Source: Komagataeibacter xylinus
GTDB taxonomy: Bacteria > Pseudomonadota > Alphaproteobacteria > Acetobacterales > Acetobacteraceae
Assembly (NCBI RefSeq): GCF_031081985.1
Contig: NZ_JARWSK010000008.1
Coordinates: 62,001-126,000 of the forward strand
DNA: 64,000 nucleotides
Direction of reading: 5' to 3'
The position numbers and the translations under genes are program-made. This document shows, piece after piece, positions 265-14,629 of this stretch; position 1 is the first letter of the stretch; every line of letters begins with the position of its first letter. The notes under the pieces were generated by a model. The model searched no databases, was not told the DNA's origin, and was given only the letters and a program-made list of their open reading frames with translations.

Positions 265-1164
265 TCAGGCGGCAGAAGCCACGTCCTCGACGGATGGCTG
301 ACGTGTCGATGAGCTGAAAATGTATTGGGCCGCGGCTGAAGCAGCACTCGCTGCGGTGAAAATGGCGCGCTTGTCAGCCTTCAGCAGTTCCAGCCAGTTC
401 CCGATGTAATCAGCATGGCGGACCGTCGGCTCGATCTGCAGTTCCGCGCATACGAAAGCAGATGTCATCTCTGCGACCAGTTCCTCGGCCGCGTAGGCAT
501 GGTCCCCAAACCGCCTGCCAAAGGTGCGCGCCAGTCGGCTTTCGGCCCCGGTCCAATGCCCGATCTCGTGAAAGACGGTTCGGTACCAGTCGATCTGGTT
601 GAAATAGGACTGCTGGGGCGGAACCCGGATGAAGTCCGCATCCGGGGCATAAAATGCCTTGTCACCACCGATGCGAATGTCCGCCCCGGTTTCGGTCATC
701 AGCGCTTCCGCGTGCGGCACGATTTCGCGTTCCGGCAACGGCGCGGTCGGCGCGACCATGCTCTCCGGCAGGTTCTCGCACTGGTCAAGATTGAACACCG
801 TAAACCGCTTTAGAAACGGGATCTGGCGTGGCTCGTCGGAACCTGCTTCCGATTTTGGCGTGAAACGGTCGGCATAAAATACAGTCGTTCCCTTCTCGCC
901 TTTCCTGACATTGCCGCCCTGCGCATGCGCCTGGCGGAACGTCAGCCATTTCTGGGTACAAAACCCCTGCATCTCTACCGAACCCCACAGCATCAGGATG
1001 TTGATCCCGGAATAGGCCCGGTCGGTCGCGGCATTACGCGGCAGGGCAATGCCGCATTTCGTGCGGCTCCACGGGCAGACCCATGGCACGGTTCCCGCTT
1101 CAAGTTCGCGGATGATGCGGTCAGTGACGCACTGGTGGATGTCGGTACGTTCAGTTCTGGCCAT
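265..1164 (-). CDS. ardC: ArdC-type antirestriction protein with zincin-like metallopeptidase domain
   Basis: About 299 aa. The N-terminal half (residues 1-130) matches the ssDNA-binding domain of ArdC (early MARTERTDIHQ, then TVPWVCPW). The C-terminal half carries the metallopeptidase motif HEIGHWTG near residue 200, with a downstream glutamate in YAAEELVAEM as the likely third metal ligand. ArdC proteins protect incoming plasmid DNA from type I and II restriction during conjugation, so this protein should act in the cytoplasm on entering single strands. The ATG at 1164 has GGAG seven bases upstream. The open frame extends upstream of it, but that stretch is arginine- and proline-rich and unlike the family, so I excluded it. 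Confidence 0.9.
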   Translation of the reverse strand: MARTERTDIHQCVTDRIIRELEAGTVPWVCPWSRTKCGIALPRNAATDRAYSGINILMLWGSVEMQGFCTQKWLTFRQAHAQGGNVRKGEKGTTVFYADRFTPKSEAGSDEPRQIPFLKRFTVFNLDQCENLPESMVAPTAPLPEREIVPHAEALMTETGADIRIGGDKAFYAPDADFIRVPPQQSYFNQIDWYRTVFHEIGHWTGAESRLARTFGRRFGDHAYAAEELVAEMTSAFVCAELQIEPTVRHADYIGNWLELLKADKRAIFTAASAASAAAQYIFSSSTRQPSVEDVASAA

Positions 1165-1238: not shown

Positions 1239-1394
1239 TCACCTGAGATCGATGATGCCCGTGCACGGATCGAGGAAGACGTCGGGCAGCAGGAGGAAAG
1301 TGACCATGGAGGCCGTCCAGAGGAGCACGATGGCGACGAATTTGGCGATTTCGACGGCGGGGCGGGACGGCGGCGCAATGCGGTTCTGTGCCAT
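1239..1394 (-). CDS. Small single-pass membrane protein
   Basis: A 51-aa frame (starting MAQNRIAPPSRP) with one strong hydrophobic stretch (roughly residues 17-37, IAKFVAIVLLWTASMVTFLL) and a short tail. An AGGA sequence precedes the ATG by about nine bases. It lies between the leader repeat at 1452-1541 and ardC and reads in the same direction, which suggests a co-transcribed accessory protein. No family recognised. The longer open frame upstream reads through the repeat and is probably not coding. Confidence 0.5.
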   Translation of the reverse strand: MAQNRIAPPSRPAVEIAKFVAIVLLWTASMVTFLLLPDVFLDPCTGIIDLR

Positions 1395-1451
1395 TTCCAG
1401 ATCCTTTTTTCGGGGGTTTCGACCCCTTCCGGCGACCGCAGGGCAGACTGG

Positions 1452-1541
1452 CGGGCAAGGGCGCCGCACAGCGGCGGCACCGGAGCCGCGCACAGATGGC
1501 GCAGCCATCGCGCACGGCGAGGAGCCACACCTTGCGCGGCA
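1452..1541 (-). repeat. Structured leader repeat, copy 1 of 3
   Basis: First of three related ~90-base segments (others at 6698-6788 and 12069-12159). It lies about 58 bases upstream of the 51-aa membrane protein, in the leader of the leftward unit that includes ardC. It contains a short hairpin with arms ATGGC and GCCAT around GCA; the corresponding arms differ in copies 2 and 3 with two paired changes. An AT-rich stretch at about 1563-1620, a likely promoter region, lies just beyond it. Confidence 0.65.
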
Positions 1542-1612
1542 GGCTGGACTGTGGTGCCTGCCTCCTTTCTTTACTATTTCATTTATTTCTATATTTTATT
1601 TTTATTATATTT

Positions 1613-2128
1613 TTATTCAGATTTGGCCTTTCCAGAGCCGCCATCCGGTTGTCCGGATCGGGCTTTTTGCGGGGATGCCAGATAGGGGCAACTGATCCGC
1701 GCAGGCGTGACATCAATCCACAAACGATTGCCCGCAGTCGCCTTCAGTGCCTTACGGATGGTATCGGCGGAAAGAAATTCCGCGCCATCGTCACCGCCAA
1801 ACGATGCGCGTTTGACATCGTACCAGTCGTCAGGACATGTGCGCGGGTCCGCTTCGACAGCATAGGCGACAAGGTTCGCCTGCCCCTCGGCATCACTGAG
1901 GCCCGGATAACCATTCGACATCAGGTACACCCCATGATCGCCGACCAGCATAAGTCCTGCCGGTATTCTGGTACGGTCGACATCCGCACCGGTCGGATGG
2001 CGCGACGATACGCCAGCCTTGAGAAAGGCCGGGTCAACAAGCTGATCATAGGTAGGGGAATGTTCGCTCGCGGCTTGCGCATGAGCAAGAAGACGCGCCA
2101 CGAGGGCATGGTCGAAATGCAGTTTCAT
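1613..2128 (-). CDS. DUF3085 family protein
   Basis: 171 aa from an ATG at 2128 with AAGGA eight bases before it. The start MKLHFDHALVARLLAHAQ and the central segment containing GLMLVGDHGVYLMSNG fit the DUF3085 family, small proteins of unknown function common on alphaproteobacterial plasmids next to ardC and large helicases. No membrane segment is present. A rho-independent terminator sits just upstream, so this gene probably has its own promoter. The C-terminal tail (SGQPDGGSGKAKSE) is polar and likely disordered. Confidence 0.75.
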   Translation of the reverse strand: MKLHFDHALVARLLAHAQAASEHSPTYDQLVDPAFLKAGVSSRHPTGADVDRTRIPAGLMLVGDHGVYLMSNGYPGLSDAEGQANLVAYAVEADPRTCPDDWYDVKRASFGGDDGAEFLSADTIRKALKATAGNRLWIDVTPARISCPYLASPQKARSGQPDGGSGKAKSE

Positions 2129-2165
2129 CGCAGTATTCCTTTGTGTATGTCCCTTTCGAGGACAC

Positions 2166-2198
2166 AAAAAAAGGCGGGACACCGAAGTATCCCGCCTT
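2166..2198 (-). terminator. Rho-independent terminator, leftward
   Basis: On the minus strand, a nine-base-pair stem (AAGGCGGGA paired with TCCCGCCTT, ten-base loop) is followed by a run of seven T residues. It lies about 54 bases beyond the stop codon of the DUF5983-like gene, so it should end the leftward unit running from the ~4.5 kb region. Confidence 0.85.
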
Positions 2199-2251
2199 AA
2201 GAAATAACAACCGGCGCCTCTGGCCCAAGGGACGCCCGATGCCGTTGCCGG

Positions 2252-2560
2252 TCATTCATCTTCATCATCATCAAAGAAACGAAGCGAAGCATCGACCGGG
2301 CCGTCCGCATCAAACAGGACGTAATCACAGTCGTGATTCCGGGCTAGGGCGAGAATGGTCCGCAGTGACCGCGACCCCGGCCAATCATGGGAGTATGGAT
2401 CCAGCGGGACATGGACAAACCATCCGTGCGGGCCGGACAGGCAGGTGAGGCCAAAGGAACCACCTGACCTTGCATATCTCTCAAGGTGTCCACGGTCCGA
2501 CAGGGGGAGATGACCGGTGCTTAGGTCGAGGAATTTCCGGATCTGGAAAGGCGCTAACAT
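2252..2560 (-). CDS. DUF5983-like protein
   Basis: 102 aa from an ATG at 2560 with GGGAG eight bases upstream. It shows the hallmarks I associate with DUF5983: an early LSTGHL segment, a central aromatic-rich region, and DYVLFDADGP near the end, followed by an acidic tail (FFDDDEDE). The function is unknown. It follows the PAPS-reductase-family gene by 31 bases and is probably translated from the same message. The open frame continues upstream but has no family signature there. Confidence 0.65.
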   Translation of the reverse strand: MLAPFQIRKFLDLSTGHLPLSDRGHLERYARSGGSFGLTCLSGPHGWFVHVPLDPYSHDWPGSRSLRTILALARNHDCDYVLFDADGPVDASLRFFDDDEDE

Positions 2561-2591
2561 CGGGTTTCTCCCTGCTTCAGGATGAGGCGGG

Positions 2592-3617
2592 TCAGACCGG
2601 CCCGGCGCTCTCGCCGAATGCGCCGGCGGGCAGGACCCATTGTTCGGGGGATGTGAGGACACGGCCACGCCAGCGGTGGCAGAGCGCGCGGCGCACCAGA
2701 CCCGGGTGCTGGCGCACGGGGCCATAAACCGTGCCGCCGCTGGCCAGCGTGCCGAGGTCCCGGTCGCGTCGGATGGTGCAGCCAAATGCGCGTTCCCACT
2801 CACACAGCCGGGCGAACCGATCCGGGTCCATGTGCCGCAGCGTTGCAGCCTGATCAGCAGACATGAATACACATGCCAGGCAGGACAGACGGCCAAACCC
2901 GAGTTGATAGGGAAGCGGCGGAATCACGCCATGCCGACGCAGGATCTGCCAGACATCCGCTTCACTCCAGGCATGTACCGGCCGCCAGTGATCGATATGC
3001 CGTCGGATCCGACCATCACGACAGTCTGCCCGGTGCCGCTCAAAGACAGCGTAGCGGGCACGGTTCGCGGATTCCGCCGCGCGTTCTCCGGTTACAAACA
3101 GGGTCCGGGCATGACTGAAGCGCGCCTGGTTCCGCAGGGCGCCATCCGCAACCATGATCTTGGCGTATGGGGAACACCAGCGGACCGACAGGTTCGCCGA
3201 AACCTGCGGGAAGCGGCGTCGCGTATTGGGCGGTCCCTTGCCACCGACAGTGACCCGCCCCGTCGGCGTATCGAACCAGACCGGTGCGGTCGGCGCATTC
3301 TCGCGCAGCATTTCCCGCACGATCCCGCCCCGGCGCGCGGAAAAATACAGCCTGACGCCAAGGGCTGCAGCCAGATGCCGCCCGTAATCGGGCACATGTG
3401 GCCAGTCAAAAACGTCCCCGTCATCGTCCACACGATGGTGCCACAACTCGATGCGCTGCGGCGCCACGCCCTTTTCGAGCAGGTGCAGGGTACTGGCGAG
3501 GGAATCCTTGCCAAAGGAACAGGCGACGATGACGTGATCATAACGCGCCAGATCAGGTATCTCTCCGGGCTCCGGCACGACGGTTCCCTGACGGGATGAC
3601 AGGCTTGCGGTCACCAT
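2592..3617 (-). CDS. PAPS-reductase-family (adenine nucleotide alpha-hydrolase) protein
   Basis: 341 aa. The PP-loop SFGKDSLAS lies near residue 36, defining an ATP-pyrophosphatase fold related to PAPS reductase and to DndC-type sulfur-transfer enzymes. Later come RWCSPYAKI and a cysteine pair (CLAC, near residue 250) that could bind a metal or a cluster. There is no sign of cysJ/cysI neighbours, so assimilatory sulfate reduction is unlikely; plasmid and phage relatives of this type have no firm function. The ATG at 3617 is preferred over the one at 3623 because AAGGAG is seven bases before it and only one base before the other. Confidence 0.75.
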   Translation of the reverse strand: MVTASLSSRQGTVVPEPGEIPDLARYDHVIVACSFGKDSLASTLHLLEKGVAPQRIELWHHRVDDDGDVFDWPHVPDYGRHLAAALGVRLYFSARRGGIVREMLRENAPTAPVWFDTPTGRVTVGGKGPPNTRRRFPQVSANLSVRWCSPYAKIMVADGALRNQARFSHARTLFVTGERAAESANRARYAVFERHRADCRDGRIRRHIDHWRPVHAWSEADVWQILRRHGVIPPLPYQLGFGRLSCLACVFMSADQAATLRHMDPDRFARLCEWERAFGCTIRRDRDLGTLASGGTVYGPVRQHPGLVRRALCHRWRGRVLTSPEQWVLPAGAFGESAGPV

Positions 3618-3781
3618 GGACATTCTCCTTGTCTGAATGTCTTCTGGCGGTCCGAAGGGATATCGCGGGTCAAACGCGGCGCGTGCGCCGGCATCGCAGG
3701 CCCGCGGAGCGGGACAAGAGCCACCGTTTGACGCGCGATGGCCCTTCGGGCATATTTTTTTCCTGTGTATTCCTGCTTTTC

Positions 3782-4195
3782 CTACGCGTCCGCGTTCAGG
3801 TATTCGTGCAGATACCGGCGCAGCAGCAAGCAGGCTGCATGGGTGTCCCGCTCACCGTCATCCGCAAGGACACGATCCATCACTCTGGCGAGAACGGCGG
3901 CTGCCTCTCGGCCCGGGCTGAAAACAAGGGAAAACCCAAACTGTCCCTGCAGCACGCCGGTCCCGGCATCGTGGACCATGGCCACGATCTCGCCATGGAC
4001 GACTTCCTCGACCTCGAGGTCCACTTCCTGACCGTCAGGCAGAATGGTGGTCCGGATCCCGTCAGAGTCTACACTGTCGGGGACGGCATTGAGGACGATC
4101 CGCGCAGCAGCCTCAGCGTCCGTCGCCGTGACCCTGAAATCGCCGGCATCGGCTTCAAACAGGCGCTCAACCAGCGTGACACGAAAATCAGGCAT
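3782..4195 (-). CDS. Hypothetical protein
   Basis: 137 aa, acidic and without membrane segments. It begins MPDFRVTLVERLFEADAGDF, a pattern resembling small plasmid proteins that open with a beta-strand pair. GGGAGG lies six bases before the ATG. The start overlaps the end of the next upstream gene by eight bases, so the two are translationally coupled. Function unknown. Confidence 0.6.
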   Translation of the reverse strand: MPDFRVTLVERLFEADAGDFRVTATDAEAAARIVLNAVPDSVDSDGIRTTILPDGQEVDLEVEEVVHGEIVAMVHDAGTGVLQGQFGFSLVFSPGREAAAVLARVMDRVLADDGERDTHAACLLLRRYLHEYLNADA

Positions 4196-4526
4196 TGCCG
4201 TCCTCCCTTACCAGGACAAATTCGCTCAGTGTCTTGGCTTCGCGCCATGGGCAGTACCACACCATCACGTCCTTTCCGCAGATTTCGGCGACAGAGCCAC
4301 GCTCTCTCAGCCGGGCCAGCTCGGCCGACGTGACTCTGGGAACCGCCGTGAAAGCGGAAAATTCGACTACTGCCGCCTCCACGCTTTCATAGGGCCCCCG
4401 CCATCGGCGGGCCGCGGGCGGATAGATTTCAGGCGTTCGGATCAGAACCCCACCATCCGGGTGGAAGCCCAGTTCAACCACATACCTGCCGATCAGACGC
4501 TTTTCCGTCATGTAGTCATGGGTCAT
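4188..4526 (-). CDS. Hypothetical protein
   Basis: 112 aa from an ATG at 4526 with AAGGAG seven bases upstream (a GTG one codon earlier is also in frame but badly spaced). The protein starts MTHDYMTEKRLIGRYVVELG and ends in a segment rich in tryptophan and cysteine (VMVWYCPWREAKT). It precedes, and overlaps by eight bases, the 137-aa protein on the same strand. No family recognised. Confidence 0.6.
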   Translation of the reverse strand: MTHDYMTEKRLIGRYVVELGFHPDGGVLIRTPEIYPPAARRWRGPYESVEAAVVEFSAFTAVPRVTSAELARLRERGSVAEICGKDVMVWYCPWREAKTLSEFVLVREDGNA

Positions 4527-4635
4527 CACGGTTCTCCTTCGCCGACGCAGGTGAACGCGTAACCTGACGTTCTGGATAAGCCCGGTGGGGGCGCATCGCA
4601 GAATTTCCCGGTCGACGTCCTGCCTGAGGCCGTTG

Positions 4636-4683
4636 CTGGCTCACCGCCCGATCTCACCATTGGGACGGCGGGCCGTGAGCCAG
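4636..4683 (-). terminator. Imperfect 15-bp inverted repeat after the ParB-like gene
   Basis: Arms at 4636-4650 and 4669-4683 (CTGGCTCAC plus CGCCCG and its near complement) pair with a single mismatch around an 18-base loop. It starts 25 bases past the stop codon of the 641-aa ParB-like gene. There is no T run, so it may be an attenuator or an RNA-stabilising hairpin instead of a classical terminator. Confidence 0.4.
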
Positions 4684-4708
4684 AGCATCACGGCGGCAAC
4701 AGCCTCGC

Positions 4709-6634
4709 TCAGCTGAAACCTACAAACTCAACATGCGTCCTGAGGAATTCTTCAGGTGTCTGCGATGGCGGAGCCGGACTTTCAGCCCTGCCATGCGGCA
4801 CATCATCCCCCTGATCTGCCGCCAGGTCTGCGGGCGTGTCGGTCACTTCATCGAACTCAATGCCCGTCGCGGCAAGATCATCGGTTCCCGGGCCATCCGT
4901 CGGCGCACCAGCATCCACGTCGTCTTCCAACTCGGTATCGTCGTCATGCGCCAGGTCCCCATCATCGTCATCCGCTTCGGATGTCGGGGCGAGCGCTTCC
5001 GCGAAGGTGGCATTCAGCGCTGCGACATCGACCTGGAAACGCGCTGCAGGATGCACCCAGATCCCCTGCCCGACATGGTCCATCAGGGCGCGGCGCATTT
5101 CCTTGCCGGTATTGCGCGGCAGGATACCTTCCGCCTTTATGGCCTTCGTGATGCCGGACTTACTGAGCGTTTTCAGGAAGTCTTCATCCGCCATGGCGGG
5201 CAGATGGTCGTCCGCTTTCACGATATGGCCGACCAGGACACCCCAGTCGCCGCTATTCGTCGCGTTCTTCTCGCAGGACAGCACGGCTTTCAGCACGTCG
5301 ACAGCCGCGCCACGCAGGAGCGCCTCGTCCAGCGCCATCTCGCCATCCTGGAACAGCCCGGCAGCAGCTACGAGCCGGCGTGACGGACGGCGCTGCGGGT
5401 AGTGTGCGTTGGAATCCCCATCCACCCGGACATTCTGCGCGTTGAGGGCCGCGATCATCAGCCCGACCAAGACCCATGGATCGGCAGAGCCCCGCATGCC
5501 GTCCAATGCGGCATGCAGCGCCTGGGTGCGGAAACTGCCGATCATGTCAAAACCGCGCCCCGAGATATCCGCCCGTTCCCGTGACCCTTCGGGCAGGGCT
5601 TCAATGACGGCGGACGGCGTTACGCGACCTGCCGCCTCGCTGCCCGGCAGGACACACCAGCCCTCGCGAACCTTCAGGCGATGATCGAGCCAGAAGAATT
5701 TCGTGGCGCCCTCGCGCTGCCAGTAGATCCGCACCATGCCGGGTTCGAAGACCGGCTCGCCGTTCTCGTCGCTCTGGAGGATCAATGCGTCTTCAGGCGT
5801 GTTCTGACCCAACCACTGGCGCTGCGCCTTCTCATAGGCGAGGCCGTCATCGGTATAACGGCCGTCCTTCCCGGCTTCACCGAACAGATCTTCCTGCCAG
5901 GCGATCCGGCAGCTTTTTGCAATGGCGTCATCAAACGAGGCCTCGATTGCATAAAAACGGTCCTGCCGCAGGGCTGACGCAATCCGGTCCCAATCGGGGA
6001 TGGCAGCACCGGGTTCCCAATTTCCGTCGGGCAGTTGCTCGCCCTCATCTTCGCAGGCTTCGACATCCTCGGGCGGCGACGAGCCAACCGGGAACCCGAA
6101 ATGGCCCCAGACCTGTTCCTGCAGCGCGGTTGACGCAAGGGCGATGCTCGCCAGTTCACGATTGTCGGGACCTTTGCCCGCCTCGATCCACGCCAGAATC
6201 TCAGGCAGGATGGCAGACAGGCGGCCGATCTGCTTCAGCTGCACCGGTGTGAGCATCAACGCCTTGCAGATCGCGGTGTCATTCCACTTTTTTTCCTCCC
6301 GGAGCCTGGCAACGACCCGCCACTGTTCAACCTGGGTCATGGGCTGACGGATCATGTTCTCCGATGCGGCACGCATCCGGTCCAGTTCCGCATCGTCGCC
6401 TGCCACCGTCACCTGAATGGTTTTCAGGCCGGCCTTGACCGCGGCACGCCGGCGGCGATGCCCCGCAACGATCTTCAGGCCGTCAGGAGTTTCGCGGACC
6501 AGGGGCGGGTGGATGATCCCGACGGCCTTGACGTTCAGCGCCAGCTGGCGCTCTTCCGTCTCGTTGGGCGTGGATTTCCGCGGGTTTTCGGGGTTGTCGA
6601 GCAGGGTTTTCGGATCAACTTCGCGCAGTTCCAT
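4709..6634 (-). CDS. Large ParB/Srx-domain protein (accessory, not the partition ParB)
   Basis: 641 aa. Residues 1-110 form a ParB-type nuclease/CTPase-like domain: the family box shows as IVAGHRRRRAAVKAG, followed by ENMIRQPMTQVEQW. A helix-turn-helix-like segment (ICKALMLTPVQLKQI) lies near 130. The remaining ~450 residues include an acidic low-complexity tail (540-620) and match no domain I know. GGAG precedes the ATG at 6634. A separate, conventional parA/parB pair exists at 14.8-17.2 kb, so this is probably a conjugation- or maintenance-related ParB homologue of the kind found beside ArdC and giant helicases on alphaproteobacterial plasmids. Leader repeat copy 2 lies 64 bases upstream. 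Confidence 0.8.
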   Translation of the reverse strand: MELREVDPKTLLDNPENPRKSTPNETEERQLALNVKAVGIIHPPLVRETPDGLKIVAGHRRRRAAVKAGLKTIQVTVAGDDAELDRMRAASENMIRQPMTQVEQWRVVARLREEKKWNDTAICKALMLTPVQLKQIGRLSAILPEILAWIEAGKGPDNRELASIALASTALQEQVWGHFGFPVGSSPPEDVEACEDEGEQLPDGNWEPGAAIPDWDRIASALRQDRFYAIEASFDDAIAKSCRIAWQEDLFGEAGKDGRYTDDGLAYEKAQRQWLGQNTPEDALILQSDENGEPVFEPGMVRIYWQREGATKFFWLDHRLKVREGWCVLPGSEAAGRVTPSAVIEALPEGSRERADISGRGFDMIGSFRTQALHAALDGMRGSADPWVLVGLMIAALNAQNVRVDGDSNAHYPQRRPSRRLVAAAGLFQDGEMALDEALLRGAAVDVLKAVLSCEKNATNSGDWGVLVGHIVKADDHLPAMADEDFLKTLSKSGITKAIKAEGILPRNTGKEMRRALMDHVGQGIWVHPAARFQVDVAALNATFAEALAPTSEADDDDGDLAHDDDTELEDDVDAGAPTDGPGTDDLAATGIEFDEVTDTPADLAADQGDDVPHGRAESPAPPSQTPEEFLRTHVEFVGFS

Positions 6635-6697
6635 GGTTTTTACTCCGTGTTCTCAGGACGCCTTTCCTGATGCACTCCGGCGGCCAGCACCGGGCTG

Positions 6698-6788
6698 GCG
6701 GGGCAAGGGCGCCGCGCAGCGGCGGCACCGGACCCGCGCGCAGGCGGCGCAGACGCCGAGCACGGGGAGGCGCCACCCCTTGCGGCGC
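6698..6788 (-). repeat. Structured leader repeat, copy 2 of 3
   Basis: About 90 bases, very close to copy 3 (12069-12159) and more diverged from copy 1. It fills most of the gap between the end of the methylase-helicase gene and the ParB-like gene, in the leader of the latter. A terminal hairpin has perfect six-base arms (GGCGCC on each side of ACCCCTTGC). Confidence 0.7.
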
Positions 6789-6811
6789 CTGACCGGAGAT
6801 GGCAGCCCTTC

Positions 6812-9800
6812 TCAGGCTGCCGCCTCTTCTTCCTTCTCCCTGTCCTCGGTGTCGTCATGCACCGGGTCTTCATCGGTCGCGGTCGCCGCCAGATCGTCTT
6901 CCAGCGCTTTCAGCTCAGCACGCTTTTCATCAAGCATCGCCTGTTCCGCGAACGGCAGGCCCAGACGGGCCCGGTATGATGGCAGGCGACGCTGCGCTTC
7001 CTCCCGCATCAGGATTGCGTCACGGAGCGCGTCATCGATCCGAAGCAGCGCATGTTCAAGACGCGAGGTCAGCCCAAGGCCCTTCGTGTCGTCCTCGATG
7101 ACAATCTCAATGCGACCCGAGCGCGCTTCCACAAACAGCGTCACGTCGACCGGGCGCTTTTCGCCGCGCACGCGACGGCCAGGCCCAGCTTCGCACATGA
7201 CGGCGAACCCACCGATGCGTCCGAGGTTCCAGACCCCTGCCTCGCCGTTCTTCGCCGCCAGGCGGACCTGTGACAGGAGCCATGACCCGGCCTTCTCACG
7301 TTCGCTGACATCCCCCTTGTCCCGACGCAGTACGAACGCATCCCCCTTCGTGGGCTGACGGCTGGCAATATCCGCCTCGATAAGCGGGATCTGGCGCTCC
7401 GCGCCCGCAATCTCACGCTCGGCCCGGTCGATGGCACGTTTTACGGCGAACTGGTCGTCATAATGGGCGGCCGCGAGTCTCTCGAGCCGCGCAAGATCGG
7501 CCTCCAGCCCGGCTTTGTGCATCAGCCGGGCATCGCCTGAGGCGAGCGCCTTGGCCATGGCGAACTGGTTTCCCCCTTCCCCGCCAATGTCCTCAATCCG
7601 GCGGATGGAACGGTCACCTGACATCGCAAGGCCAATAAAGCGCTGCTTGCGTTCGAGGAGTTGCCAGTTGGTCGCGTCAACAGAACCCTGCTGGGCATAG
7701 GCGTAGAGTTCGATTTCCGCGTGCTGGTTGCCCTGCCGCTCGATGCGTCCCTCGCGCTGGATGATGTCGGAGACCAGCCACGGCACGTCGAGATGGTGCA
7801 GGGCCTTGAGGCGCTGCTGGGCGTTGACGCCGGTGCCCATGGTCGCCGTCGAGCCGATCAGGATCCGCTTGCGGCCGGCATTGAGATCACCGAACAGCTT
7901 CTGCTTCGCCGCACTCTTCCTGTAGTGCTGCATGAACGCGATTTCCGCGCGCGGCACGCCCAGGCGGATCAGTTCATCGCGGATCCACGTATAGGCGGAA
8001 AAACCGCGTGTCTCCATCGCGCTCTCGGTGCCCAGATCCGAAAAGATCATCTGCACCGCCCCCGGCAGGTCGTACGGCCGACCGGTTTCAGGATCGCTGT
8101 AACGGCTTTCCGATGTCTCCTGCCAGATCCGGAACACGTTCCCGATCATCAGGTTGAGCTTCGATGTATCGTCATTCGCGGCGAGAGGGGCGACGAAGCG
8201 CAGGTCGATCGCGGCGTGACGGGCATCCGTGATGACGGACAGGAGGATGTCATCGCCCTTCTGGGGACGCCCCTGGCGTGCTTCGATGGCGTTGATGCGG
8301 GCCGCCAGCGTCTTCTGGTAGGCCCTGAAGTTATCGTTTGTCGGTGCGACAATAATCTCGCGACGTCCGCCCCGGATCGCTGGCAGATTCACGTACTGGC
8401 GCAGGTCATCGTGCTGCACGACATCCGCGAAGTCGCGATACATCGCCATGAGGTCGGCGACGTTGACGAACTCGGTGAAGCGCGTGACCGGCTTGTAAAG
8501 CCCGCTTGGCTGCAGTTCCAGTTCGGTACGGGTTTCGCCGAAATTGGCTGCCCAGGCATCGAATTCATGCAGGTAGCGCTTCTGCAGCGCCTCAAGATCC
8601 ATATAGCGGCTGACCGTCCACATTTCGGCGAGCGTATTGGTGATGGGGGAGCCGGACGCCATGATTAGCGGACGTTCCGGATTTTTTGCCGCCAGATAGC
8701 GCGTCTTTACGAAGAGATCCCAGGCCCGCTGCGAGCCGTTCGGATCGACCCCCTTGAGGTCGGACTGGTTGGTTGCAAAACTCAGCTTCCGGAACTGCTG
8801 CGCTTCATCGACGAGGATCTGGTCGATGCCAATCTCTCCCAGATGCACGAGATCGTCCTTTCGAGCGGAAAGGCCTTCCAGCTTCGCCTGCATCTTCTCC
8901 TTCATGCTCTCGACCCGCTTGCGCGACAGGCGGTCGGCCGCGTCGACGCTTTCCAGCACTTCCTCGTAAGACGCGATCTGCGCCTCGATCATCTGGCGCT
9001 CGAAATCCCCCTCCACCGGGATGAACCTGAATGCGTCATGCGTGATGATGATCGCGTCCCAGTTTCCGGTCGCGGCCCGGGCGAGGAACCGCTGGCGCTT
9101 TGCCTTCACGAAGTTCGTCTCGTCGGCGACGAGGATCCGTGCGGTCGGGTAGAGCATGAGGAATTCGCGGGCCATCTGGGCGAGGCAGTGACCGGGGACG
9201 GCGATCATCGCCTTGCTGATCAGCCCAAGCCGCTTCTGCTCCATGACGGCCGCAACCATCGAGAAGGTCTTTCCGGAGCCGACCGCGTGCGCGATATACG
9301 TGCCGCCCGCGGCGATGATCCGCCAGATGACCCGTTTCTGGTGGGGGCGCAGGCTGATCGTGGTGCTTGCACCGGGCAGGCGCAGATGGGAGCCATCAAA
9401 CGCGCGAGCCACGAGGTTGTTGTAGGTGTCGTTATACAGCCTGACCAGCCTCTCGGCCCGATCGCTATCCTGCCAGACCCATGTCTCGAACGCACGCCTG
9501 ATCGCCGCCAGTTTTTCCTTTGCGGCTTCGGTCTCCTGTGTGTTCAGTTCGCGGTGCTCATTGCCATCGCCATCACGCCAGACATCCCATATCTTTGGCG
9601 ATGCCTGCGTCAGGGCATCTTCCAGCAGTTCGCCGGCATGTCGCCGTTCCGTTCCCCAGACTGACGTAGCCTCGGCCTTGCCCATGAACGCCCGTTTCTC
9701 CACGGTCCAGCAGGCGACAGCAGGCGCGTGATAGATGACCGTTTCGACCCCGAGCACCTCGGCGGTAAAGGCGATGATGTCACTGACCGGCAACCAGGGA

Positions 9801-11911
9801 GCGCCAAGGCGCGCGGTGATCTCCGACGGACGCAGATCGGCTGGCTGGACGGCTTCCAGCGCCGTCACGTTCCGGGCGTAGCGTCCATCGATCCGGGCTG
9901 CATCGCGTGCCTCTTCCAGCTTGGTCCGCACGGCGCCGGAGAGCATTTCATCAGTCGTGACCCAGACATCGCGACCGTCCACACTCCGTGCCGGATCGAG
10001 ATAGACCGCATCCCCCAGTGCGGCCGCGACCTCAGCTTCGGACTGTCCCATGAGTTCCGCGATCCGCGGCATTTCCACGCCGCCTGTTTCATGCAGGCAG
10101 ACGGCCAGGGCGTCGTGGGCGGAATGGATCTCGGGTTCGGCAGGCGCATGAATGACCCGTTCCGAGAAAATCGGTCCCATCCGGCCTTTCTGTGTCGCCT
10201 CGTCGTATTCCTCGATGGACGAGACCAGCCAGACGTCGGGATCATCGTAAAATGGCGTCAGGTTTGGTCGCCGCTGGGTTTCGTTTTCGACCCCGGTTTC
10301 CGGATCGATCCTGACTGTCACACTCATCAGGTTGATCGGGCCGAACTGCCGGACAAAGCTGAAATAGGCACGCTTCAGATCACCCTGCAGGCGTCCATAG
10401 GGCAGGTTCTCCATCTGCGCCCGCAGGACCGCGCGTGCCGCATCCCGGACGGGTATCAGCGCGGTAATGATCCGGGCATGCTTCTGGAAGAGGCCGTCCT
10501 TCTGATGCCCCTTCCTGATGGCGACCGTGGCGGCCTGTCCGTCGCAGATCTGCTGCAGGACGCCCTTCGTGACGAAGTAGGAGCCCTCTTTCAACTGGGC
10601 GCCATCGGCAGCCGTGCCGACCAGCACACCGGCTCCCGCCGGCCGGACAATGCGCTGGTCCAGGGGTTCCGGAAAGCGCACGTCCTGCCCGATCCGGTCC
10701 AGGGCCTCGGGCAACATCACATCGAGCCTGCCGTCGGCACGCGCGTCGCATGTGTAATCGGGACCGAACTGGGTGGTGGTCCAGCCGTGACGGCCAAGCA
10801 CCTGCTCCGGGTGGTCGAGGAAGTAGCGATTGACGAGGAGCGGACCGTTACCATGGTCGCTATTCGCAAGGGCGCCGGTTTCCAGCCAGGTCTCGTCATC
10901 GACCATGTCGCCGATCATGCGCTTGCGGAACACCAGTACGTCCACCACCACGTCCGTGCCAGCGTCATCGCGCATTGCCCCGGCGGGGAGCCGGATCGCC
11001 CCCACGAGGTCAGCCATGTCGGCAATGGTCCGGCGCGCGGTGCTGTCCGTCTTGTCCAGCGTATGGCGGGACGTCACGAAGATTGCGATGCCGCCTGGGC
11101 GGAGTGCCTCGACGGATCGGGCAATGAAAAAATCATGCAGGCTCAGGCCAAGCCGTCCCAGACCTTCCGGGCCACGCACGGTGCGATTGGAAAAGGGTGG
11201 ATTACCGATCGCAAGATCATACCCGTCTGCGAGCTTCACTGTCGTGAAATCCTCGCTGCGGATCCACTGGTTCGGATAGAGCCTGCGCGCAATCCTTGCC
11301 GTAATCGGATCATTCTCGATCCCGGTAAAGGCGATGCGTCCCTCGAGCCTTTCCGGTCGGGCCGCGATGAAAAGACCGGTCCCACAGCCGGGTTCAAGCA
11401 CGGAACCGCCTCTGAAGCCCATCCGCAGCACTTTGTTCCAGAGCGCGTGCACAATCAATTCAGGGGTAAAGTGCGCATATTGTGTCGCGCGCTTCAGTCC
11501 TGCCCTTTCAACGTCTGTTGTGGAGGCATGGATCGCTTCGCCAAACTCTTCCCAGCCTGGGCGGGGGCTATCGCTCCCGGATGGAAACAGGTTGTTCGCC
11601 AGTTCTCCTGCTCCAAAGCCGATGAAGCGTGACAGGACGATCTGTTCGGGAGAAGAGGCGTTTCGGTCTGCTTCTTCGATCTCCTTGAGCAGCGCGATAG
11701 CCAGTGCATTGTCACGGGCCCGCTGTTTCCAGGTGTCAGCGAGACTTCGGTTGGTCACCATATGAAAGTCGATCTGGGGAAGGGTCATCGGGGCCGGTGT
11801 GACGGGCGAGACAGGGGAGGTGCCGTCTTCACCTTCAAGTTCGCCCCAGAAAAGGTCGTTCTGGGTATCTGCGAGAGCGGTTGTACCGAAGAGGTTGAGC
11901 TGAAACGACAT
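6812..11911 (-). CDS. Giant N6-methylase / SNF2-type helicase fusion
   Basis: 1,699 aa. An N-terminal adenine-methyltransferase-like domain occupies about residues 90-340, with LEPGCGTGLF (cofactor loop) and GNPPFSN (catalytic motif IV). A superfamily-2 helicase follows, with Walker A HAVGSGKT, Walker B VDEAQ, MASGSPITNT, and a motif VI version QREGRIERQGNQ. A coiled, charged C-terminus ends in a Glu/Ala-rich tail. Proteins of this size and order are widespread on large plasmids and phages; P1 DarB is the best known relative and protects DNA from type I restriction. Together with ArdC next door, an antirestriction or DNA-processing role in transfer is likely but unproven. GGAG is seven bases before the ATG. 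A second methylase domain is not visible. Confidence 0.85.
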   Translation of the reverse strand: MSFQLNLFGTTALADTQNDLFWGELEGEDGTSPVSPVTPAPMTLPQIDFHMVTNRSLADTWKQRARDNALAIALLKEIEEADRNASSPEQIVLSRFIGFGAGELANNLFPSGSDSPRPGWEEFGEAIHASTTDVERAGLKRATQYAHFTPELIVHALWNKVLRMGFRGGSVLEPGCGTGLFIAARPERLEGRIAFTGIENDPITARIARRLYPNQWIRSEDFTTVKLADGYDLAIGNPPFSNRTVRGPEGLGRLGLSLHDFFIARSVEALRPGGIAIFVTSRHTLDKTDSTARRTIADMADLVGAIRLPAGAMRDDAGTDVVVDVLVFRKRMIGDMVDDETWLETGALANSDHGNGPLLVNRYFLDHPEQVLGRHGWTTTQFGPDYTCDARADGRLDVMLPEALDRIGQDVRFPEPLDQRIVRPAGAGVLVGTAADGAQLKEGSYFVTKGVLQQICDGQAATVAIRKGHQKDGLFQKHARIITALIPVRDAARAVLRAQMENLPYGRLQGDLKRAYFSFVRQFGPINLMSVTVRIDPETGVENETQRRPNLTPFYDDPDVWLVSSIEEYDEATQKGRMGPIFSERVIHAPAEPEIHSAHDALAVCLHETGGVEMPRIAELMGQSEAEVAAALGDAVYLDPARSVDGRDVWVTTDEMLSGAVRTKLEEARDAARIDGRYARNVTALEAVQPADLRPSEITARLGAPWLPVSDIIAFTAEVLGVETVIYHAPAVACWTVEKRAFMGKAEATSVWGTERRHAGELLEDALTQASPKIWDVWRDGDGNEHRELNTQETEAAKEKLAAIRRAFETWVWQDSDRAERLVRLYNDTYNNLVARAFDGSHLRLPGASTTISLRPHQKRVIWRIIAAGGTYIAHAVGSGKTFSMVAAVMEQKRLGLISKAMIAVPGHCLAQMAREFLMLYPTARILVADETNFVKAKRQRFLARAATGNWDAIIITHDAFRFIPVEGDFERQMIEAQIASYEEVLESVDAADRLSRKRVESMKEKMQAKLEGLSARKDDLVHLGEIGIDQILVDEAQQFRKLSFATNQSDLKGVDPNGSQRAWDLFVKTRYLAAKNPERPLIMASGSPITNTLAEMWTVSRYMDLEALQKRYLHEFDAWAANFGETRTELELQPSGLYKPVTRFTEFVNVADLMAMYRDFADVVQHDDLRQYVNLPAIRGGRREIIVAPTNDNFRAYQKTLAARINAIEARQGRPQKGDDILLSVITDARHAAIDLRFVAPLAANDDTSKLNLMIGNVFRIWQETSESRYSDPETGRPYDLPGAVQMIFSDLGTESAMETRGFSAYTWIRDELIRLGVPRAEIAFMQHYRKSAAKQKLFGDLNAGRKRILIGSTATMGTGVNAQQRLKALHHLDVPWLVSDIIQREGRIERQGNQHAEIELYAYAQQGSVDATNWQLLERKQRFIGLAMSGDRSIRRIEDIGGEGGNQFAMAKALASGDARLMHKAGLEADLARLERLAAAHYDDQFAVKRAIDRAEREIAGAERQIPLIEADIASRQPTKGDAFVLRRDKGDVSEREKAGSWLLSQVRLAAKNGEAGVWNLGRIGGFAVMCEAGPGRRVRGEKRPVDVTLFVEARSGRIEIVIEDDTKGLGLTSRLEHALLRIDDALRDAILMREEAQRRLPSYRARLGLPFAEQAMLDEKRAELKALEDDLAATATDEDPVHDDTEDREKEEEAAA

Positions 11912-12068
11912 GGCCGTGCTCCGTACAAACGCCGGCGCCCGGCACTGCTTCTGCAGGCCGGGGTGTTTCCGGGTTAGGTTTTCGGGATGTCAGGAACGGG
12001 CTTGCTAATCAGGTTGTGTCGCCTGATTACTCTTTCCTTCAGTTCTCATTGCAACCGGGTCGGGCAGT

Positions 12069-12159
12069 GCGGGGCAAGGGTGCCGCGTAGCGGCAGCACC
12101 GGACCCGCGCGCAGGCGACGCAGACGCCGAGCACGGGGAGGAGCTACCCCTTGCGGCGT
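12069..12159 (-). repeat. Structured leader repeat, copy 3 of 3
   Basis: Nearly identical to copy 2 and located 158 bases upstream of the methylase-helicase start, again in the leader of a leftward gene. Its first hairpin pairs GGTGC with GCACC outside CCGC/GCGG. The rest of the 11912-12463 gap is AT-rich and holds a palindrome (12353-12374) but no gene that I can support. Confidence 0.7.
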
Positions 12160-12352
12160 GCTGGCCGAGCTGGTGCCAATCCCTAAATGACTTTGCGGAC
12201 TAATCTCTTAATCTTATTCTTCTTGTGGAAGCAGACTTACCACCCGTTCAGCTTGAATCTTACGAAAAAGCGGGTAGTCACACATCCGATCGCTATGTTG
12301 CAGTCGTTTAAATTTTTACAGTCGACCGATAGTTAAAATGGATTGTCGCTGG

Positions 12353-13795: not shown

Positions 13796-13879
13796 CCTGA
13801 CCTGGTGGGGGACCTAGCCTGACCTCTTGGGGGATAGTAACCTGACCTCGTGGGGGATCTAACCTGACCTCGTGGGGGA
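13796..13879 (+). repeat. Iteron cluster I (four direct repeats)
   Basis: Four 17-base iterons (consensus CCTGACCTCGTGGGGGA) start at 13796, 13818, 13841 and 13863. The 22-23 base period puts each on the same face of the helix. Together with rep this marks the replication origin. The two inner copies at 13841 and 13863 are identical; the first two differ by one or two bases. Confidence 0.9.
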
Positions 13880-14490: not shown

Positions 14491-14629
14491 TCCCCCACGA
14501 GGTCAGGGTAAGCATTTGTACCTTGCCCCCCCCCCCAAGAAGTCAGGATAGCGACGTGCGCCGATTGGGATCCCCCATAAGGTCAGGATACCTCGTACAT
14601 CTTATCACATGCTCCCCCAAGAGGTCAGG
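14491..14629 (-). repeat. Iteron cluster II (four inverted copies, wider spacing)
   Basis: Copies of the iteron in reverse orientation (TCCCCCACGAGGTCAGG and variants) start at 14491, 14531, 14571 and 14613. The 40-42 base period is about four helical turns, nearly twice that of cluster I. The second copy is preceded by an unbroken run of eleven C residues (14526-14536). The cluster lies upstream of parA and could serve in copy-number control (handcuffing) or in Rep control of the par operon. Confidence 0.85.

Follow-up and report, generated by a model that had tools for sequence, protein, structure and literature searches.

A stretch of 64,000 nucleotides (nt) from contig NZ_JARWSK010000008.1 of Komagataeibacter xylinus (assembly GCF_031081985.1, positions 62,001 to 126,000 of the forward strand; hereafter the window) carries a repeated, structured element in front of leftward-reading genes, including that for the anti-restriction protein ArdC, which we think is probably a promoter read from single-stranded DNA (ssDNA) as the plasmid enters a new host. 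A sequence-only reading of the window had placed three copies of about 90 bases at 1452, 6698 and 12069, each upstream of a leftward gene. These copies are real; the 90-nt repeats occupy 1450-1539, 6698-6787 and 12069-12158, with the first and third showing 82% and 93% identity, respectively, to the second, and each does precede a leftward gene. The outer helix is also paired, with a sequence that differs from copy to copy, so the element extends to about 119 nt and not 90. A covariance model built from plasmid copies (R1) and an improved version of it (R2) also detected a fourth, diverged copy at an expectation value (E) of 9e-10 and 3e-14, respectively, bringing the window's total to four copies of roughly 100-120 nt each (Table 1).

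Table 1. The four element copies of the window and the genes beside them.
Feature	Coordinates	Strand	Remarks
Element copy 1	1436..1554	+	Precedes the gene of the 51-aa protein (itself before ardC) by 42 nt; TTG of the right arm at 1532-1534
Element copy 4	3651..3750	+	Precedes the PAPS-reductase-like gene by 28 nt; TTGACG-N17-CATATT of the right arm at 3728-3756
Element copy 2	6684..6802	+	Precedes the ParB-like gene by 50 nt; TTG of the right arm at 6780-6782
Element copy 3	12055..12173	+ (fold strand = template)	Precedes the methylase-helicase gene by 144 nt; TTG of the right arm at 12151-12153
ArdC anti-restriction protein	265..1164	-	Pfam ArdcN, MPTase-PolyVal
51-aa small membrane-like protein	1239..1394	-	First gene after copy 1; from sequence
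PAPS-reductase-family protein	2592..3623	-	First gene after copy 4; Pfam
ParB_N-domain protein	4709..6634	-	First gene after copy 2; Pfam
1,699-aa methylase-helicase	6812..11911	-	First gene after copy 3; Pfam and relatives

When one copy was used as a query, 29 places were found on 10 plasmid records of Komagataeibacter and Novacetimonas. In its own genome, blastn returned no further strong copy, the next match having an E of 0.014, and R2 gave four matches (E up to 0.001, nine candidates scored), all on this contig. With R1, the element was detected in at least 74 of 397 Acetobacteraceae genomes and at least 31 of 102 genera, its own included (E up to 0.05); genome counts for both models are lower bounds because nine candidates were scored per genome. 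It also occurs on a Methylosinus plasmid (L036). For alignment, 60 stretches were taken for diversity among the matches listed, leaving out most near-identical Komagataeibacter copies and weaker matches; these and the plasmid loci supplied alignment A2 (130 matches in 69 sources, E up to 1e-4, 123 distinct rows).

The element folds into a long outer stem that bears a small hairpin and a second, interrupted arm. The two compensated base pairs named by the sequence-only reading proved correct (columns 61/73, G-C to A-T, and 62/72, C-G to T-A, of alignment A1), the pair just inside 62/72 being a G·A mismatch in copy 2. Among 10 plasmid copies, 12 of 38 pairs carry such two-sided changes; the outer helix varies in sequence and largely keeps its pairing, and 93% of cells are paired, a share that falls to 30-46% once the partner is shifted 1-3 columns. 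Across the 123 distinct rows of A2, two-sided changes extend to 35 of the 38 pairs (1019 cells), and the covariation score of 0.545 was reached by none of 500 shuffles (0.132, sd 0.005) nor by slid structures (0.040-0.076). The structure that RNAalifold predicts for A2, whose rows were fitted to R1, has 38 pairs, 37 of them with two-sided changes, and lengthens the outer helix to a conserved CC/TGG base. Selection on a nucleic-acid structure common to plasmid-entry genes is thus strongly supported. At the A2 loci, the fold strand is also pyrimidine-rich for tens of nucleotides on either flank; such flanks would keep a hairpin isolated on ssDNA, and a Shine-Dalgarno sequence alone does not explain them.

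Two strands could carry this structure, and mismatches distinguish between them. All four window genes read leftward, which gives their mRNA the sequence of the minus strand. Selection for structure in that mRNA would tolerate G·U on the minus strand, seen on the plus strand as A·C. The opposite was found, which points to the plus strand as the fold strand. When mismatches were counted only where Watson-Crick pairs flank both sides, the plus-type strand of the R1 alignment (130 rows) held 44 G·T versus 15 A·C, 99 G·A versus 9 T·C and 48 GG versus 0 CC; with AA and TT included, purine-purine mismatches numbered 151 versus 16 pyrimidine-pyrimidine. Since R1 itself favours G·U on the plus-type strand, an exact mirror model (R3) was built; it recovered largely the same places, and its alignment (129 rows) gave 44 G·T versus 17 A·C and 144 purine-purine versus 16 pyrimidine-pyrimidine mismatches. 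The G·T excess persisted after clustering at 70% identity (32 versus 11 with R1, p 0.002; 32 versus 13 with R3, p 0.007). A discovery bias as the source of the asymmetry is answered by the mirror model. Folding energies pointed the same way: with DNA parameters the strand opposite the mRNA folded better in 113 of the 123 rows (mean difference -5.1 kcal/mol; control pieces, 121 of 253, mean -0.14), and with RNA parameters it was more stable in 89. The constrained strand is therefore probably the one opposite the mRNA, and the element not an RNA leader. Combined with a mirror model, the mismatch asymmetry offers a test, from sequence only, that separates folded DNA strands from RNA leaders.

Position was assessed on annotated records covering eight loci (29 R1 matches, E up to 0.03; weaker R2 matches, such as those at 11400 and 10551 of L033, were unused). 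In 27 of the 29, the element sits 28-144 nt before an annotated start codon, with the fold strand as that gene's template; of the two exceptions, L033:19451 lies 372 nt off and the next gene at L030:6645 is absent from the table. Nineteen copies remained once near-duplicates on L022, L030 and L031 were excluded (five of these 19 are weak, E 0.0005-0.03, and one upstream distance, 2660, is a lower bound); their median distance was 50 nt to the downstream start versus 144 nt to the upstream gene (p 0.005), indicating that the element belongs with the gene behind it. Downstream genes encode ArdC, ParB-like proteins, methylase-helicases, cytosine methylases and SSB, all of kinds present in the leading region of plasmid F; PMC11541004 reports such genes as enriched in leading regions and encoded on the transferred strand (T-strand). 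The block reads toward a mobF relaxase gene on three plasmids (the home plasmid, pGXY010 and one of Acetobacter), and the genes in between run in either direction. Six Rhizobiales loci in which Ti-type tra genes are visible have a related block pointing toward traC/traA. A putative Ti-type nic core, sought in four loci with one mismatch allowed, was located on the template strand of L034, L131 and L133, in the interval separating traC from traA; this placement fits an entering strand that is the template.

A precedent for transcription from an entering single strand exists in F, whose leading genes are driven in vivo from ssDNA by Frpo, as described in PMC9849209. When the strand studied here folds, its right arm becomes the non-template strand, and a -35-like element is rebuilt in the stem, in the helix close to the gene, as a nearly invariant TTG (T 87%, T 84%, G 93% in mRNA sense over 113 copies) followed by C/A, C and C; pairs neighbouring TTG in the same helix covary freely. 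On the right arm, 60 of 98 elements have a TG where an extended -10 would stand, 19-20 nt past the first base of TTG (shuffles: mean 11, maximum 22). When both strands were scored in 81 elements, the right arm alone had the TG in 26 and the duplex strand alone in 2; both had it in 22, and neither did in 31 (p 3e-6). Restricted to offset 20, the counts were 21 for the right arm versus 6 for the duplex (p 0.006). The promoter signature is thus kept better in the folded than in the duplex form. In the window, the TG is confined to the right arm in copies 1 and 3, present on both strands in copy 2 and missing from both in copy 4; at the -10 position, copy 4 and its close relatives carry CATATT, with no such -10 on the duplex strand. 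A sigma-54 box (GG-N10-GC) was discarded, its spacing being wrong by eye in copy 3.

A simpler hairpin lies upstream of DUF1419 genes in all eight Rhizobiales plasmid loci aligned and is more stable on the template strand in each. TTGA[C/T]G with a TG at a closely similar distance is carried by the right arm in 8/8 and by the duplex strand in 3/8. Applied to four of the eight loci, R2 matched three (E 0.0001, 0.001 and 0.2) and gave no match in L133, so common descent is not established and convergence is possible. Right arms of these hairpins carry TGCGGCA[GC], and that of the presumed Frpo2 of F (L138, upstream of ssb) carries TGCGGCAGG; this likeness possibly reflects chance or a shared polymerase contact.

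Fold, constrained strand, position and TTG/TG geometry were all computed, and together they suggest the following model, for which we infer the identity of the T-strand on the home plasmid, RNA polymerase as the reader and the timing of expression. During conjugation, the first-entering strand, presumably the plus strand here, would fold into a long imperfect hairpin with two smaller hairpins on top. Its stem would serve as a short duplex, with the 5' (left) arm as template and the 3' (right) arm, bearing the -35-like TTG and then the TG 16-17 nt further at the extended -10 position, as non-template strand. Bound to this stem, the host's RNA polymerase would transcribe the entry genes ahead of second-strand synthesis. 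In the double-stranded plasmid the promoter would largely switch off, because the non-template strand of the duplex differs and keeps the TG less often. We think it rather likely that each copy is a single-stranded-DNA promoter of this kind, driving leftward transcription of the entry genes from the incoming strand. We also incline, if only slightly, to the broader proposition of an independent alphaproteobacterial class of such promoters, defined by TTG and TG on the far arm and largely silent in the duplex, with a simpler cousin on Ti-type and symbiotic plasmids of Rhizobiales.

Several observations weigh against this interpretation. No TATAAT-like -10 is found on the right arm, where the best family match (1.96) falls under that of shuffles (2.26), nor on the duplex strand, where that stretch is GC-rich. 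Nearly two-fifths of the elements scored on both strands (31/81) lack the TG altogether, and the duplex mRNA strand also carries it above shuffles (23 of 82; mean 7, maximum 18). The mismatch and energy tests share information and are not independent; AA and TT mismatches (4 versus 7) run in the opposite direction to the others; and a C-to-T (deamination) bias on exposed ssDNA could lift the G·T count, an effect that would not extend to G·A and G·G. With a crude open reading frame caller, only 107 of 130 elements preceded a gene in the expected orientation (22 other, 1 none); that caller also failed one annotated case, and the orientation statistic was replaced by the annotated records. The T-strand on plasmids with MOBF relaxases is deduced from gene layout, and the putative nic core at one mismatch gave only a stray match in L036, with counts near chance in L131 and L036. 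At this sensitivity the element is scarce beyond Acetobacteraceae, R2 finding it in at least 2 of 385 genomes of the class, its own included (E up to 0.001). Longer windows of F upstream of six genes favour the template strand in only four. Finally, leading genes may also be expressed early by derepression, as PMC7314908 proposes for RP4.

The principal rival is a single-strand initiation site, at which a primase or primosome, perhaps involving the plasmid's TOPRIM protein, would start the second strand. Such a priming site accounts for the strand, the fold and the absent -10; a DUF3991/TOPRIM gene is annotated in the block at several loci, though not in every stretch, and Masai and Arai, in a title, reportedly describe Frpo as priming as well. 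Complementary-strand origins (ssi/sso), among them the one of ICEBs1, likewise consist of folded ssDNA read after transfer. They are not known to be tied to start codons or promoter boxes, whereas the copies here sit closer to the start of the gene behind them than to the gene upstream and conserve the TTG-TG spacing of a promoter, and up to eight of them crowd into 16.5 kb (L086). We regard priming as unlikely.

More doubtful still is a structured 5' leader RNA of the downstream mRNA, acting as a switch or protein-binding leader, which the sequence-only reading had raised as a post-transcriptional control. The placement before start codons and the strong covariation suit it, as does the complement strand, which also folds and whose pairs covary equally well in its own alignment (35/38). 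The mismatches speak otherwise: read on the mRNA strand, they would be A·C, U·C and C·C, not G·U, G·A and G·G. The mRNA strand is also the less stable one in most elements with either parameter set, and Rfam returned no match. Moreover, the -35-like box lies in the gene-side helix, and an RNA begun at promoter distance from it would leave the structure out. With the constraint on the strand opposite the mRNA, that part of the earlier proposal is not upheld.

A small structured RNA made from the fold strand, running antisense to the stretch ahead of the genes, would produce the same strand asymmetry, and the RNA energies favour that strand as well; there is also a sigma-70-like plus-strand match at copy 4. 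This match, however, lies on the right arm and is directed away from the element, promoter matches in the region number 2 versus 3.1 expected, no more than chance, and an antisense RNA gives no reason for the closeness to start codons or the TTG-TG spacing, which makes it very unlikely. Equally improbable is a duplex or cruciform binding site for a plasmid regulator, in keeping with the short conserved sequence blocks inside the inverted repeat; a duplex has no preferred strand for mismatches, and binding to it needs no branched fold with freely covarying spacer pairs.

Some further features of the window and its relatives were recorded. The 51-aa membrane-like protein after copy 1 has an annotated counterpart at 17447-17602 of L021, and its longer, 89-aa reading gave no Pfam match. 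All Pfam matches of the methylase-helicase (Helicase_C, ResIII, SNF2-rel_dom and Eco57I) fall under the curated cut-offs; relatives are annotated as DEAD/DEAH helicases or N-6 DNA methylases, and on several plasmids RefSeq names them 'lactate dehydrogenase', which looks like a propagated misannotation. Predicted intrinsic terminators numbered 12, with 10.9 expected, one of which (6800-6822) overlaps the last bases of copy 2. Next to a rep-like gene, iteron-like CCTGACCTNNTGGGGGA repeats at 13796-13879 and 14491-14629, four on the plus and four on the minus strand (one with 2 mismatches), form two sets about 600 nt apart, and this region is likely a replication origin. Around the rep-like and parAB-like genes, the palindrome ATTGCAACGTTGCAAT occurs four times (12356, 14107, 14282 and 16066; one with 1 mismatch) and in none of 100 shuffles; these are perhaps partition-protein or repressor sites.

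Among known systems, Rfam searches of the window and of six further loci gave no family matching the element, radC included, and STAXI too as far as the searched library contains it. Weak matches to sraL, CcsR1 and mir-4488 fell far below the gathering thresholds. The one family found in these loci, the small RNA ar15 (RF02345), lies away from the element, at L034:5409-5518 (-), upstream of a TOPRIM gene in the entry block of a Ti-type plasmid. The radC RNA motif (RF01754), to which the element gave no match in these searches, is proteobacterial and precedes DNA-handling genes. STAXI, too, is structured and repeated and occurs close to ssb, antirestriction and other DNA-handling genes, but consists of tandem pseudoknots; its authors (Weinberg 2010; PMC2864571) considered ssDNA and judged RNA more likely. 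Single-stranded-DNA promoters have been proposed elsewhere by BLAST or consensus, according to PMC11541004. No such element is described for Alphaproteobacteria among the open-access literature matches listed, nor in the passages of PMC11541004 and PMC12826799 screened for alphaproteobacterial names.

The closest parallel is Frpo (Frpo1 and Frpo2) of F and ColIb-P9. No likeness in sequence was detected, R2 giving 0 matches up to E 10 against 48-68 kb of F; the fold here has a branched, GC-rich crown, whereas that of F ends in an AT-rich tip, and, unlike Frpo, the element lacks a -10 hexamer and is so far found mainly in Acetobacteraceae. The resemblances are of another kind. F has two copies of Frpo in its leading region, whose genes, oriented toward the tra region, include as here ssb and those for ParB-like, methylase and anti-restriction proteins; the hairpin in both cases is on the strand opposite the mRNA, with the -35 in the stem, and in the F region upstream of ssb, taken as Frpo2, the template side is likewise the more stable (-44.8 versus -39.9). 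The element is thus best read as Frpo-like in function and not in sequence, forming a new family of single-stranded-DNA promoters. If this is correct, acetic-acid bacteria possess a second class of such promoters with an architecture of its own, and Rhizobiales plasmids a simpler form of it, and the anti-restriction and SSB genes there would be switched on at entry by the same route.

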